A stretch of 36,558 bases of DNA from Cytophagaceae bacterium (GTDB taxonomy: Bacteria > Bacteroidota > Bacteroidia > Cytophagales > Flexibacteraceae), in contig JAIXQU010000168.1 of assembly GCA_027485575.1 (NCBI GenBank), forward strand, positions 1-36,558, given 5' to 3'. This document shows positions 15,002 to 19,771 of the stretch, piece after piece. Under the pieces are notes generated by a model. That model ran no database searches. It was not told the origin of the DNA and saw nothing but the letters and a program-made list of their open reading frames with translations. The position numbers and the translations under genes are program-made. Each line of letters begins with the position of its first letter. The first letter of the stretch is position 1.

Positions 15002-16477
15002 CTACAGCATTTCTAAAAACCCTTCCGCCTTTTCCAAATGACTCTTTTGTTTTTCCAATGTCATTTTATCAAAGGTCCCTACCAACATGCCCAGCCTTGG
15101 ATTGCTTAGGAAAAAATCACGGTGAACATGCATAAACCTCCAGAAAAGGCCATCCCAGATTTCCTGCCATGACCCTTTTTTAAAGTCGCTCATCTTTAAT
15201 AGATAATTGCTGCCGCTGATGTAGGGTTTGGTGGCCATCAAACCGCCGTCTGCAAACTGACTCATGCCATATACGTTGGGCACCATTACCCAGTCGTAGC
15301 TGTCGATAAACATTTCCATAAACCAGCGATAGACCTCATCCGGGTCAAATTCACAAAGCAACATGAAATTCCCAAGCACCATAAGTCGCTCTATATGATG
15401 GCAATAACCCGTTTCCAAAACCTTTTTGATTGTAACATCTATGGGTTCAATTCCAGTAGTACCTGTCCAGAAGCTTGCCGGAATTTTCCGCTTAAATCCC
15501 CAATAATTTCGGGTTCTTTCCTCGGTTCCTTTCAGTTGGTAAACAGCCCTTATGAACTCACGCCAACCCAAAATCTGGCGGATAAATCCTTCCAATGAGT
15601 TAAGTGGAATATCGTTGCCAGCAGAAAAATCCAGCGTTTCATTTAAGATTTCGTTAGGCGAAATCAAACCTACATTCATCATGGGTGTGAGAATGCTGTG
15701 GTGTAAAATGGTTTGGCCTTGCACCATGGCATCTTCATAAAGGCCAAATTCTGCAAATCGGTTTTTCAAAAAATCTGACAACCAGATTCTGCTTTCTTCA
15801 AATGTGCATGGATATAAAAAGTCTGGGTTTATCTGGCCATAGTTTCCGGAAAAATGAAGTTGCGTATATGAAATGGCTTCTTTATAAAAAGAATTGATGG
15901 CCAATGGACGTACGGTGGGTGGCTTCTTTTCTTTTGGATATTTCAGTCGGTTTTCAGCATCAAAAGTCCACTTCCCTCCTACTGGCTTTCCGTCGCTTTC
16001 AAGTAAAATTCTCCGCTTAGTCCTTTGGGTTTTATAGAAATCGGTCTGAAACATTTTCTTCTTATCCGCAAAATGAGAGAGAATTTCTTCCTCCGAATTT
16101 AAAAACATGGGGCTGGAGTGTTTTATGGCCACAACCTGATTTTGCAAAGAGGATTCAGCGATGCGCATTTCCAGCCAATTGTCAACCGTATCTACGTATT
16201 CAATAGACTTTATTCCAGCAGTTCTGAGATAAGAAATCAGGTTCCTGACATCCGAAATTGGATTCCCCGATTCAACGTAAACCACCTCAATTCCTTTGTC
16301 TTCAAGGTAGGTTTCATAAAACTTCATACTTGCCCGGTGAAAGGCAATCTTTTGTTTGTGGAAATTATATTGTTTGAAAAAAAGGAATTCTTCAACCAAA
16401 TAAATGCTTGAGCAATTGTCTAACAATACACTGTTTTCAAACAGCTGATGAGGAAATACGATTCCGGTTGATTTCAT
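15002..16477 (-). CDS. COG3046-type cryptochrome/photolyase lacking the Fe-S loop
   Basis: This 491-residue protein belongs to the bacterial cryptochrome / (6-4) photolyase lineage (DPRP, FeS-BCP; PhrB of Agrobacterium and CryB of Rhodobacter are the known members). An N-terminal alpha/beta domain (1 to about 130) starts [13 protein letters not shown]. The FAD-binding helical half has [60 protein letters not shown] and NPRLGML. In characterised members a Cys-rich insert (YC-GC, then ACPFN-LYW) follows MSDY and holds a 4Fe-4S cluster. Here MSDF runs almost straight into IWDGLFWRF with no Cys, and DPDEVYRW has Tyr where I expect the first ligand. The cluster is therefore probably absent. The start overlaps the DUF2256 stop (ATGA, 16474-16477), implying coupled translation. 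Repair substrate cannot be read from sequence. Confidence 0.88.
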
Positions 16478-16620
16478 TTTTTTGATTTTTCATTTCTGCA
16501 CTTTTCGCTGCAATATTTCACTTCATGCCAGACTTTTTCCCATTTCTTTCTCCAGGCAAACGGGCGCTGGCAAACCAGGCAGACCTTCTCGGGTAAATTT
16601 TGTTTTTTAACGTTTTTCAA
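16474..16620 (-). CDS. DUF2256 small zinc-ribbon-like protein
   Basis: A 48-residue protein containing [18 protein letters not shown] and then VKYCSEKC, the hallmark of DUF2256: two CxxC-type pairs (C14/C17 and C37/C41) suited to binding zinc. Members are commonly encoded beside photolyase/cryptochrome genes. The only usable start is TTG at 16620-16618, because an in-frame TAG lies two codons upstream, and this gives the usual family length. The stop TGA overlaps the ATG of the downstream photolyase. The gene is easily missed because of its size and start codon. Molecular function is unknown. Confidence 0.85.
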
Positions 16621-16625
16621 ATGCT

Positions 16626-16750
16626 ACGAAGATGTCAGGGCTACGCCCCTTTTTTATTTTGATATTTTCTGTTACAAAGATGTCAGGGCTACGCCCCTTT
16701 TGATTTTGCTTTTTTTGGGTTTACGGAGATGCCAGGGCTACGCTCCTTTT
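16626..16750. repeat. Three spaced copies of a 28-bp hairpin repeat
   Basis: Copies at 16626-16655, 16674-16701 and 16723-16750 share the core GATGTCAGGGCTACGCCCC followed by TTTT; the third has two base changes. Starts are 48 and 49 bases apart. AGGG and CCCT (or CTCC) within each copy can pair around the GCTACG loop. They fill the 153-base gap between the class I-like photolyase and DUF2256. On the plus strand each copy looks like a small hairpin plus T-run, but the flanking genes are on the minus strand. Confidence 0.85.
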
Positions 16751-16773
16751 GAAAAATTTCTTTGATGTTGTTT

Positions 16774-18249
16774 TCAAAGTCGGTTTTGGTTTTTATCAAA
16801 CTTGCTGTTTTTGGTGTGGGTCCTTATAATTCGCACATTTTCAGCTTTTACCAGTTCATCTTTTCGCAATTTCCAAAGCGCATCCACATTCTTCCGGAGT
16901 TCAGATTGTAAGTCAATAATGGGAAGTGGATAATCTCTGCCCAATTTAAAATTGTATAGCATAGCATCTATTTCCGTCATCAACCAGGGCTGATGTCGAA
17001 AGGCTATTGGCAAAGCGGAAAGCTCCGGTAACCACTGGGAAATAAACTCTGCTCCCGGGTCATGCTCCAAAGAATTTTTGACAGGATTATACACCCGAAT
17101 GGTATTGACACCGGTTGTTCCGGATTGCATTTGAAATTGGGGATAATGTATTCCAGGTTCATAATCTAAAAACAATTGTGCCAGAAAATGAGCCCCTTGT
17201 CGCCAATCCAAAAACAAATGATGGCTTAAAAATGAAACCAACATGGCCCGCATTCTGAAGTTAATCCAGCCTGTTTTTTCTAAACAACGCATACATGCAT
17301 CCACCATGGGAATTCCGGTGGTACCTGTTTTCCATGCCGTTAGCCAATTTTCATTTTCTACATAATCGAGTTTCGCATATCCTTTGTTGATGCATTCCGT
17401 TTCATAGCTGCAATCCATTTCAAATTTTTGAATAAAATGGCAATGCCAGTGTAATCTGGAGAGAAAACCCTGAAAAGGTCGTTTTACCCCGGGTTGTTGG
17501 AGTCTCAATTGGGTAGCGTGAAAAACCTGCCGGACAGAAATATTACCCCAGGCCAGATAAGGCGAAAGGCGGGCACAGGACTTTCTGCTTAGCAAAGGTT
17601 TGGAAATGTGTTTGTTGTAATTTTGGCCACGCTCACTTAGAAAAGAATCCAGATACTTCCAGGCATTCAATTCTCCGGAAGGCTGAAAGGAGGACGGATA
17701 TTTTAACAACGACTCCAAAAGTTCAGGTTGCAAAGGAAATGGATGCTCAAATGGCGTACATTCTGCGCTTTGGAATACATTTTTAATCACAGGAGCATTC
17801 ATTTTTTCATTCCATAATGCGTCCCATTTCACCCTGTTTTTCAGTCCCCGGACAACGCCATTATTTTGAAACTCCCTCCAGATAATGCCAGATTTTAAAA
17901 ACTTCTTTTTGAGTGCTTTGTCTCTGTCATAAGTGATTTTGATTCCGCTTTCCTGGTAACTGAAAATGCTTTTTACCTCAAATTTCTGAATCAAAAAATC
18001 AAAGACCTTTTCTGCATCCCCGTGAAATATCTTCACCTCTTTTCCAAATGGTAAGAGTATTTGATTCATCGCCAAAATAGAATGGAATTGAAACTGCAAA
18101 TGCCTCATTGAACAATCCGGATAAGCCAGGACAGAAGGTTCAAAAAGGAAAAGAATCAAATAGGGAATCCCTTCCGATTCAGCAGCTTGAAGTGCTTCGT
18201 GGTCTTGTGTGCGCAAGTCCCTTTTTAGCCAAACCAGATTAACAGGCAT
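16774..18249 (-). CDS. Class I-like photolyase/cryptochrome (FAD-binding)
   Basis: A flavoprotein of the DNA photolyase/cryptochrome superfamily, 491 residues from the chosen start. The N-terminal antenna-type Rossmann domain begins [17 protein letters not shown] and runs to about residue 130. The helical FAD domain (about 195-455) has [64 protein letters not shown] and [17 protein letters not shown]. In place of the canonical GGWQW-x-A segment it has [16 protein letters not shown], typical of a distinct subgroup whose repair activity I cannot name. I chose ATG at 18249: it lies two bases after the upstream stop and gives the canonical N-terminus. The longer frame (from 18291) would overlap the upstream gene by 40 bases and add 14 atypical residues. 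It probably acts on pyrimidine dimers or as a light sensor. Confidence 0.9.
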
Positions 18250-18251
18250 TT

Positions 18252-19352
18252 TCAATACGCCTTTTTTATTTCCTTTTCCAGCACTTTCCAATAGGCAAAA
18301 AATGAGGGGAAATAGCCTTTCACCTTTTCACTAATCCAATCTCTGCTTTCCTCAATTCCATTGTAATGTCTGTTTAAAGGATGCTCTTTGAAATAGATTT
18401 TTTCAGATTGACATTCACTTTTTAAAGCTTCAAAACTTCCCACAAAAACCTGTATATCAGGAATATTTTTACTCAGATTCAGCATAAAATCAAGACACTT
18501 ACTACTGATTGGATATTGTTGAAAAACTTCAGGTTCCAGCAATAAAATCCGGTTTCCAGGTTCGCCAGCGTGCCAAAGCGGGTCCAGATTGTAATAGTTA
18601 TAAATGAAACTTGGGAATTCAGGGTTGAAAGTCAAGGCTTGACTTTGTGGCAAAACGGTTTGGGCGTCAAACTTTGTCGTTCTCTTCAGTACCTCTGGAA
18701 TTCCCATGGATGCCAATTCCTCATAATCCGCATTCAAAAAACTATTTTGAAAAGGGGTATTTGTATAACGGCTAATGTTTTCCTGGTTGGCAAAGTACTT
18801 TTTTCCACTGTTGCTGCCGGCCACCCATTGCCAGCTGCAGGCATTGCTGGCCCAGTCACCGTCCAGCAAATGGTAGTACATCCATTTCGCAGGATTTTTC
18901 CAGTGAGACTGCCCGATGTTACAAGCCAGGGAAGCCGTGTACATCCGGCAATGGTTATGCATGTAGCCGGTGTCATACAATTTTTTTATGGCATTGTCAA
19001 TTCCCTGAATACCAGTCCTTCCATTTGGAATTTCAATTGGAGTTTCAAAGTTGGAAACCTTTTCCTGAGGATGCTTTATATCCAGATCAATGTCCTTTTC
19101 CTGCCAAACCCTTTGAAAATAATCCCGCCAGGCAAGCTCTTTTATAAAAGATTCAATTTGATTGAGTTCAAATCCCCTGTCTAAAACCGATTTCAGAACT
19201 TGCTTTGTACTGATTACACCTCTGGAAATATAAGGTGAAAGATAGGTTACATCTCCGTTGAGGTAGTTTCTGGTTTTGCCATATTTGATTGGATCTATGG
19301 CTTCAACCCGAGCCAGAATTTGGTTATAATCGGTTTCAAAAATCAATTTCAT
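18252..19352 (-). CDS. Photolyase-like FAD-binding protein with reversed domain order
   Basis: The 366-residue protein starts directly with the photolyase FAD-binding helical domain (about 10-215): [80 protein letters not shown] and RYTNTPFQN. The FAD-contacting segments (HN-RM, DGD-AxN, WQW) are kept. There is no N-terminal antenna domain. Instead a C-terminal segment (about 245-366) has alternating strands and helices ([28 protein letters not shown]) and ends [11 protein letters not shown], resembling part of a photolyase alpha/beta domain moved to the other end. Similar short proteins are, to my knowledge, common in Bacteroidota but uncharacterised. Its ATG overlaps the upstream stop (ATGA, 19349-19352) and its stop is two bases before the next photolyase start, so all are translated together. 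Confidence 0.85.
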
Positions 19353-19612
19353 ACCCGTTTGCTGATTTTATTCATCGCGATGCTTCTTTGCCTGCTACAC
19401 TTAAACCGCTCTATTTCAGGGTTCCGCTTCTTTTCATGTTTTTGACTCACACCTGAGTTCACCCGCTTTCTCCATAAGTTGAAACTGCTGCGCTTCAACG
19501 TCTTACGCATCAGGGCAATTACCTCCGATTCACTTAGACCAAACTGGGCTTTGATGGCGTCAAAACTGGTTCGGTCTTCCCAGGCCATTTCTATGATTCT
19601 GTCGGTGTCCAT
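19349..19612 (-). CDS. TIGR03643 / DUF2805 family protein
   Basis: An 87-residue basic protein with the family signature: IIEMAWEDRTSFDAI (6-20), QFGLSESEVIALMR (23-36), LKRSSFNLWRKRV (39-51) and a trailing QKHEKKR. The central part looks like a small helix-turn-helix (FGLSESEVIALM). The family is found next to photolyase genes in Bacteroidota and marine bacteria; its role is unknown. It is the first gene of the five-gene photolyase operon and overlaps the second by the ATGA sequence. A DNA- or RNA-binding regulator of the operon is an inference from the helix-turn-helix look only. Confidence 0.88.
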   Translation of the reverse strand: MDTDRIIEMAWEDRTSFDAIKAQFGLSESEVIALMRKTLKRSSFNLWRKRVNSGVSQKHEKKRNPEIERFKCSRQRSIAMNKISKRV

Positions 19613-19701
19613 TGTGATTTTTTATAAAATGAAGGAACAATCTTTCCCTCACCACTTTGTATAAATTATAATTTAAAACAAGGCTGCTTAAAGGTTGTTT
19701 T

Positions 19702-19730
19702 CAAATTAAGGAATTTTATTTCCAGAACAA
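19702..19730 (-). promoter_or_regulatory. Candidate promoter of the photolyase operon
   Basis: On the minus strand TTG (19730-19728) is followed after 18 bases by TTAATTTG (19709-19702), one base off the Bacteroidota -7 consensus TAnnTTTG, with near-consensus spacing. It would leave a leader of about 80-90 bases before the ATG at 19612. The region is AT-rich, so chance matches are likely. Confidence 0.3.
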
Positions 19731-19771
19731 CTGCCTCGTTTTGAAGTCATATTCTCAAACTATAGCATATT

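Follow-up and report, generated by a model that had tools for sequence, protein, structure and literature searches.

Photolyases are usually studied as lone, self-sufficient, single-chain repair enzymes. Two groups, Emmerich et al. in 2020 and Xu et al. in 2021, have reportedly described photolyases called NewPHLs or SPLs. For this class, an inverted domain order and the repair of cyclobutane pyrimidine dimers (CPDs) in single-stranded DNA have been published, according to the accessible passages of one source (PMC13274461). Among the prokaryotic (6-4) photolyases, the enzymes lacking an iron-sulfur (Fe-S) cluster form subgroup M, which includes PromaPL of Prochlorococcus (passages of PMC9178010), and Synechococcus sp. 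PCC 7335 has an operon of two photolyases that is inducible by ultraviolet B (UV-B) and conserved only in Phormidesmis (passages of PMC9649867). Here we describe a set of five genes on contig JAIXQU010000168.1 of a Cytophagaceae bacterium (phylum Bacteroidota), within a stretch of 36,558 nucleotides (nt) that was analysed as a whole and is called the window below. Three of the genes encode photolyase relatives, namely a flavoprotein with its flavin adenine dinucleotide (FAD) domain first (CPP), a class-I-related flavoprotein (PHR1) and a protein of the PF04244 family; the other two encode small proteins of the families DUF2805 and DUF2256. We consider it rather probable that they form a photoreactivation operon, in which a CPD photolyase (CPP) and a (6-4) photolyase would be combined with the divergent PHR1 and with DUF2256 and DUF2805 as accessories. 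Reversed domain order and the Fe-S-less (6-4) subtype are already known; what is new here is the conserved cluster and above all the tie between DUF2256 and PF04244, which we did not find in print in the open-licence literature.

CPP resembles the NewPHL/SPL photolyases in having its FAD catalytic domain at the N-terminus, that is, in inverted domain order. It also has His in place of R342 and lacks W306 (E. coli photolyase numbering throughout), and each of these changes is shared with four of five FAD-first proteins from Alphaproteobacteria and Deinococcus that we used for comparison and that are presumably NewPHLs. It differs from them in its C-terminal domain, which is not alignable by sequence to those of the five proteins, and in its location in a (6-4) photolyase cluster. 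The PF04244 protein is like subgroup M by family and cysteine loss alone, having none of the four [4Fe-4S] cysteines, and differs in that it adjoins DUF2256 and often CPP. The PCC 7335 operon likewise joins several photolyase genes with overlapping reading frames, but it consists of two genes of other photolyase classes, and the passages of that source mention neither DUF2256 nor DUF2805.

The 48-residue protein of the window matches the DUF2256 profile (PF10013) with 78.2 bits against a cut-off of 25 (E 5e-22), and this family belongs to the TRASH clan (passages of PMC4047054). We examined its occurrence in an even sample of 148 genomes across the phylum Bacteroidota, which is less biased than the locus set described below. 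DUF2256 was found in 50 of these genomes, PF04244 in 49, DUF2805 in 43, PF00875 (photolyases in general) in 112, the flavin reductase in 24 and rhodopsin in 23, while CPP gave 14 full-length matches and one partial match, the 82 residues in G137 that were excluded from the co-occurrence tallies (which therefore count 14 and not 15). DUF2256 and PF04244 were observed together in 46 genomes, DUF2256 alone in 4, PF04244 alone in 3 and neither in 95 (phi 0.89), as compared with a phi of 0.24 for the control pair of DUF2256 and PF00875. The two genes lie within 5 kb of each other in 21 of the 46 pairs, further apart on the same contig in 7 and on different contigs in 18. Because DUF2256 tracks PF04244 over the 148 genomes even when unlinked, the pattern of occurrence strongly supports a functional tie between them. 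In three families with mixed states (f24, f26 and f42) the two agree in 27 of 27 genomes, a tally that covers listed genomes only and does not extend to f34, which has mismatches. All 14 full-length CPPs come from genomes with both PF04244 and DUF2256, lying within 5 kb of the former in 10, of the latter in 10, and of DUF2805 in 7 of 12. Among 14 well-known control genomes, PF04244 occurs in Caulobacter, Synechococcus elongatus and Haloferax, and DUF2256 in the first two of these only. The neighbourhood also extends to plasmids: on a Rhizobium plasmid PF04244 adjoins DUF2256, on an Acinetobacter plasmid the PF04244-DUF2256 pair is followed by TIGR03643 on the other strand, and on a Vibrio plasmid PF04244 is followed by one short-chain dehydrogenase/reductase (SDR) gene and then by DUF2256 on the other strand. 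No link between a photolyase and DUF2256 or TIGR03643 was found in the open-licence literature, nor in the available passages on DUF2805 and DUF2256, and COG4338, which we take to be the COG of DUF2256, was not found in that literature. If DUF2256 is indeed a dedicated accessory required in vivo, photolyases would have an obligate small partner. A family of 48 residues that follows one photolyase class, linked or unlinked, offers a concrete and inexpensive test of accessory factors in light-driven repair inside cells, and the tie would give a possible function to a common orphan family.

The arrangement of the genes is conserved as well, more than chance would give. An alignment of four CPP orthologues, used to search genome contigs, gave at least 560 relatives at E≤1e-3, ordinary photolyases included, and the best 80 loci were kept (75 titled as Bacteroidota), 50 of them informative in having enough flank. 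Cluster members were sought by profile searches, and the counts of gene order consider six surveyed families only. DUF2256 was present in 33 of the informative loci, DUF2805 in 32, PF04244 in 32, the flavin reductase in 26 and PHR1, an optional member, in 17. Over the 80 loci, 51 clusters contain DUF2805, and in 50 of these it is the nearest upstream neighbour of CPP, the exception (L121) having an SDR gene between the two. All 36 clusters with both DUF2256 and the PF04244 gene have DUF2256 as the nearest upstream neighbour of the latter, with a 4-nt overlap in 22 of them. A single informative locus out of 50 shows the exact five-gene order of the window; most of the others have an additional flavin reductase or lack one or more genes. 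The sequence-only reading of this DNA had named a failure of the families to co-occur in other genomes as evidence that would speak against it; what we found is that order and linkage recur. In one genome (G024; L039, 6106-6219) CPP is cut to a frame of 37 residues matching the CPP C-terminus, a gene remnant, and the cluster retains DUF2805, the flavin reductase, DUF2256 and PF04244. Another genome (G017; L042, 3817-8674) has a compact cluster of a flavin reductase, DUF2256 and three photolyase-like genes.

Several observations weigh against a photoreactivation operon with DUF2256 as its dedicated accessory. The 80 loci were chosen as the best CPP matches, and so are biased to this cluster and include near-duplicates, and CPP is patchy, being full-length in 4 of a set of 39 genomes made up of the window's own and its relatives, and in 14 of the 148 phylum genomes. 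Of the 25 DUF2256-PF04244 pairs not within 5 kb, 18 sit on different draft contigs, where the true distance is uncertain. DUF2256 occurs without PF04244 in G021 and G174 and, by weak matches, in G049 and G118, and PF04244 without DUF2256 in G103, G117 and G179; by family, the mismatches are 1/5 in f23 and 2/15 in f41, and f34 has G103 and the weak G118. On Pantoea and Hirschia plasmids, DUF2256 stands with no photolyase within 5 kb (two of four plasmid neighbourhoods read). The (6-4) photolyase SePhrB, made in E. coli, is active and carries FAD and an Fe-S cluster (passages of PMC9178010), and PF10013 is lacking from E. coli, one of the 14 control genomes, so that homologue can do without DUF2256 for its basic activity. 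Finally, the co-occurrence is in part one of light lifestyle and of shared ancestry, which the tests ignore, and we therefore did not rely on p-values. A plain stress operon would be one in which separate repair enzymes and small genes unrelated to them share a transcript because all are needed in light, the small proteins having no physical or mechanistic tie to the photolyases. In its favour, operon structure alone predicts only co-expression, rhodopsin correlates with PF04244 (phi 0.49) as well as with DUF2256 (phi 0.48), and DUF2805 is found without PF04244 in 6 of 43 genomes and on plasmids with no adjacent photolyase. Such an operon would not explain why DUF2256 and PF04244 remain so closely associated in rhodopsin-free genomes (phi 0.84) and in the 25 of 46 pairs that are not within 5 kb, nor why the association with photolyases in general is so much lower, and we regard it as doubtful, though worth keeping in mind. 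The reading of DUF2256 as a dedicated, hitherto unrecognised accessory that prokaryotic (6-4) photolyases require in vivo, whether or not they carry an Fe-S cluster and across Bacteroidota, Proteobacteria and Cyanobacteria, is one that we hold tentatively, giving it slightly less than an even chance. In that role DUF2256 would most likely be a small, zinc-binding partner that contacts nucleic acid, presumably DNA, and it may help the enzyme in the cell by lesion access, targeting or protection rather than by cofactor assembly.

The last gene of the set matches the DPRP profile (PF04244, E 3e-50), and the closest solved relatives of its product are prokaryotic (6-4) photolyases, namely 7ykn of V. 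cholerae (E 1e-81) and PhrB. In the alignment it retains the His-His-x-x-Arg-Leu-Met motif and, as counted there, both Asp residues aligned to D179 and D254 of PhrB. A role of the Asp pair in binding Mg2+ is read across from D178 and D253 of the Caulobacter enzyme (passages of PMC12082625). The four [4Fe-4S] cysteines are all present in the PF04244 proteins of Vibrio, Rhizobium and Acinetobacter, and none of them is present in the window's protein or in 46/46 cluster homologues (46 of the 48 PF04244 reading frames in the loci passed a length filter). With the four cysteines absent, an assignment of this COG3046-type protein to the FeS-BCP enzymes was rejected. Ten further Bacteroidota loci, taken from the 49 PF04244 genes sampled, comprised eight with none of the four cysteines and two with all four; in one of these two (G094) the cluster includes both DUF2256 and DUF2805, and the other (G117) has no DUF2256. 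We conclude that the protein is probably an Fe-S-less prokaryotic (6-4) photolyase, with (6-4) activity predicted from its residues. These cysteine patterns also bear on the idea that the Fe-S cluster of prokaryotic (6-4) photolyases is matured with the help of DUF2256. A Cys-rich protein beside four-Cys enzymes in Rhizobium and Acinetobacter, and in one cluster with such an enzyme in G094, would fit a maturation factor; DUF2256 equally adjoins enzymes that lack the four cysteines altogether, as in the window and many Bacteroidota homologues (0/47 with any of the four). Because it stands beside both kinds of PF04244 enzyme, it is unlikely to be an Fe-S factor, and we consider a maturation role very improbable.

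CPP matches only FAD_binding_7 (PF03441), over residues 69-187. Its AlphaFold model (predicted local distance difference test, pLDDT, 95.9) has an FAD domain at about residues 1-225 and an alpha/beta domain at about 240-340, and residues 1-225 of the model align to photolyase FAD domains with Z 15.8 for both 7ykn and 1iqr. Folded alone, the C-terminal domain reached a pLDDT of 92.1. It had no Foldseek match at E≤0.001, and when it was re-aligned structurally the top 13 rows were all photolyase or cryptochrome N-terminal domains (Z 7.5 to 6.4), the best being residues 21-152 of 8a1h (Z 7.5, root-mean-square deviation 2.4 over 97). Two points count against an antenna domain here: universal stress proteins follow close behind, from Z 6.3, and the photolyase scores stay below 8. 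Sequence proof of such a domain was sought and rejected, the best hhalign probability being 8.5%, against the N-terminal domain of PHR1, with a class I reference alignment of two or three sequences only; because this support is weak, the antenna-domain case rests on predicted structure. The model thus supports CPP as a photolyase of reversed order. In a FAD-first protein on a Deinococcus plasmid (L137, 2357-3730), residues 301-395 in the C-terminal half match PF00875 weakly and below the cut-off (E 0.001), which may connect the swapped antenna domain to known ones by sequence. A viral structure library gave three matches at E≤0.001, two of them named photolyases and one unnamed.

The functions of individual residues are known for E. 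coli photolyase, and we checked 12 catalytic or flavin-binding positions of the CPD enzyme in an alignment of 61 CPPs. The 61 were retained from 84 candidates (4 orthologues and 80 loci), the other 23 being omitted as near-duplicates or for odd length or brevity, and one of these 23, L113, for an internal stop. Ten of the 12 positions are identical in 61/61 (E274, W277, N341, M345, W359, D372, D374, N378, W382 and W384), the other two being the R342 and W306 changes given above. CPD repair by CPP is thereby suggested, and within the operon CPP would act as a CPD photolyase of the inverted-topology kind. A CPP profile scored 106-148 bits with the five FAD-first comparison proteins vs 67 with E. 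coli Phr. In the tree, CPP forms a clade of its own (98/98) whose sister is uncertain. It falls together with the five presumed NewPHL-like rows and the (6-4) enzymes, apart from class I; the branching order among these is uncertain, long branches meet, and no named NewPHL sequence was included. Taken together, these results make it most likely that CPP is a further clade of the NewPHL/SPL inverted-topology class. The possibility that its reversed order is a new architecture was dismissed, inverted topology being already in the literature (passages of PMC13274461). The sequence-only reading had taken the coupling of the small proteins to the flavoproteins as a sign that the products share a complex or a regulatory circuit and are not simply three repair enzymes acting independently. 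A functional tie has gained support, strongly so for DUF2256. With most CPD active-site residues retained in CPP and the catalytic motifs intact in the PF04244 enzyme, co-expressed independent repair enzymes are at least as likely as a complex or circuit.

PHR1 matches the DNA_photolyase and FAD_binding_7 profiles, yet its active site is altered. In the window's protein we observed the substitutions E274R, N341F, M345A, N378H, W382F and W384M, with W277 kept; at the positions that mark class I CPD photolyases (E274, W277, N341, M345, W384) it has R, W, F, A and M. The same R, F, A, H and M occupy positions 274, 341, 345, 378 and 384 in 31/32 PHR1 rows, with F, L or I at 382, the remaining row being an ordinary photolyase by its residues. 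By these residues PHR1 is not a standard CPD photolyase; it probably performs no standard CPD repair, and may sense or repair something else. In the tree, PHR1 and a Nostoc protein share a branch (100/100) next to the class I rows. A protein encoded on a Nostoc plasmid (L139, 1817-3361) has R, F, A and M at E274, N341, M345 and W384, as in PHR1, and photolyase-like proteins that lack the CPD active site may thus form a wider clade. The six substitutions would also suit a light-signalling cassette, with PHR1 (perhaps also CPP) as blue-light sensor, a DNA-binding DUF2805 as output and DUF2256 as co-regulator, and DUF2805 is indeed first in the operon and has a weak, below-cut-off similarity to sigma-70 region 4 (E 0.019). 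The putative sensor, however, is present in far fewer of the informative loci (17) than DUF2805 (32) or DUF2256 (33), and CPP keeps most CPD residues, so that we judge such a cassette unlikely.

The DUF2805 protein matches its profile at E 7e-35 and the NCBIfam model TIGR03643 at E 1e-33 (115.2 bits, cut-off 66.55). Across the 148 genomes, DUF2805 and PF04244 occur together in 37, DUF2805 alone in 6, PF04244 alone in 12 and neither in 93 (phi 0.72), and 9 of the 37 pairs lie within 5 kb. TIGR03643 genes on Vibrio, Pseudoalteromonas and Nostoc plasmids have no adjacent photolyase in 5/5 inspected stretches, and because of these copies DUF2805 is less specific to PF04244 than DUF2256 is. In the photoreactivation operon, the small DUF2805 protein would probably bind DNA and either regulate repair or assist in it, with other uses elsewhere. 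On a Vibrio pelagius plasmid (L161, 822-4728), the strand opposite TIGR03643 carries a photolyase at a distance of 1.4 kb and a flavin reductase at 3.0 kb.

The flavin reductase of the related clusters is a PF01613 protein of about 210 residues. Of the 40 clusters holding it in the 80 loci, 37 have it downstream of CPP, on either side of PHR1, and the other 3 have it upstream of DUF2805; its phi with PF04244 over the 148 genomes is 0.47. The window's cluster is without it, and a loss from the genome was rejected, as a homologue of 248 bits is encoded on contig C101. The enzyme, wherever encoded, would keep the flavin reduced. In many genomes, then, the cluster pairs CPD-type and (6-4)-type photolyases, both of lately described architecture, with a flavin reductase. 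The window's genome also encodes a microbial rhodopsin (contig C156, 9244-9897), and the organism therefore probably lives in light.

The layout of the genes is given in Table 1. All five lie on the minus strand within 15,002-19,612, the span given by the sequence-only reading, and the family names of that reading (DUF2805/TIGR03643, a FAD-first protein, a class-I-like protein, DUF2256 and COG3046 type) are borne out by the profiles.

Table 1. Features of the photolyase gene cluster and its flanks, in window coordinates.
Feature	Coordinates	Strand	Description
DUF2805/TIGR03643 gene	19349..19612	-	87 aa; first in operon
CPP gene	18252..19352	-	366 aa; photolyase relative with inverted domain order
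PHR1 gene	16774..18249	-	491 aa; class-I-related flavoprotein, CPD active site substituted
PHR1/DUF2256 intergenic gap	16621..16773	.	153 nt; three direct repeats
DUF2256 gene	16474..16620	-	48 aa; TTG start; Cys-rich small protein
PF04244/COG3046-type photolyase gene	15002..16477	-	prokaryotic (6-4)-type, without the four [4Fe-4S] cysteines
Intergenic stretch, operon to divergent MpaB-like oxygenase gene	19613..19771	.	presumed promoter region

Three of the four junctions are tightly coupled, by 4-nt ATGA overlaps at DUF2805/CPP (19349-19352) and DUF2256/PF04244 (16474-16477) and by a 2-nt gap at CPP/PHR1, as the sequence-only reading had reported; the fourth, the 153-nt gap, was absent from it. 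Co-transcription of the five genes is probable from this layout. PHR1 was taken to start at the ATG at 18249, a longer TTG start being possible. Next to the operon lie a divergent gene for an MpaB-like oxygenase and, at the other end, a convergent one for a PAS histidine kinase. Promoter- and terminator-like sites were about as frequent as in shuffled sequence, and no promoter site was identified in 19613-19771. The direct repeats of the PHR1/DUF2256 gap share the core GATGTCAGGGCTACGCCCCTTTT, present in three copies at a spacing of 48/49 nt, and a genome search found the core nowhere else in the genome. The repeat-bearing gap is the slot that holds the flavin reductase gene in 8 of the 80 related loci.

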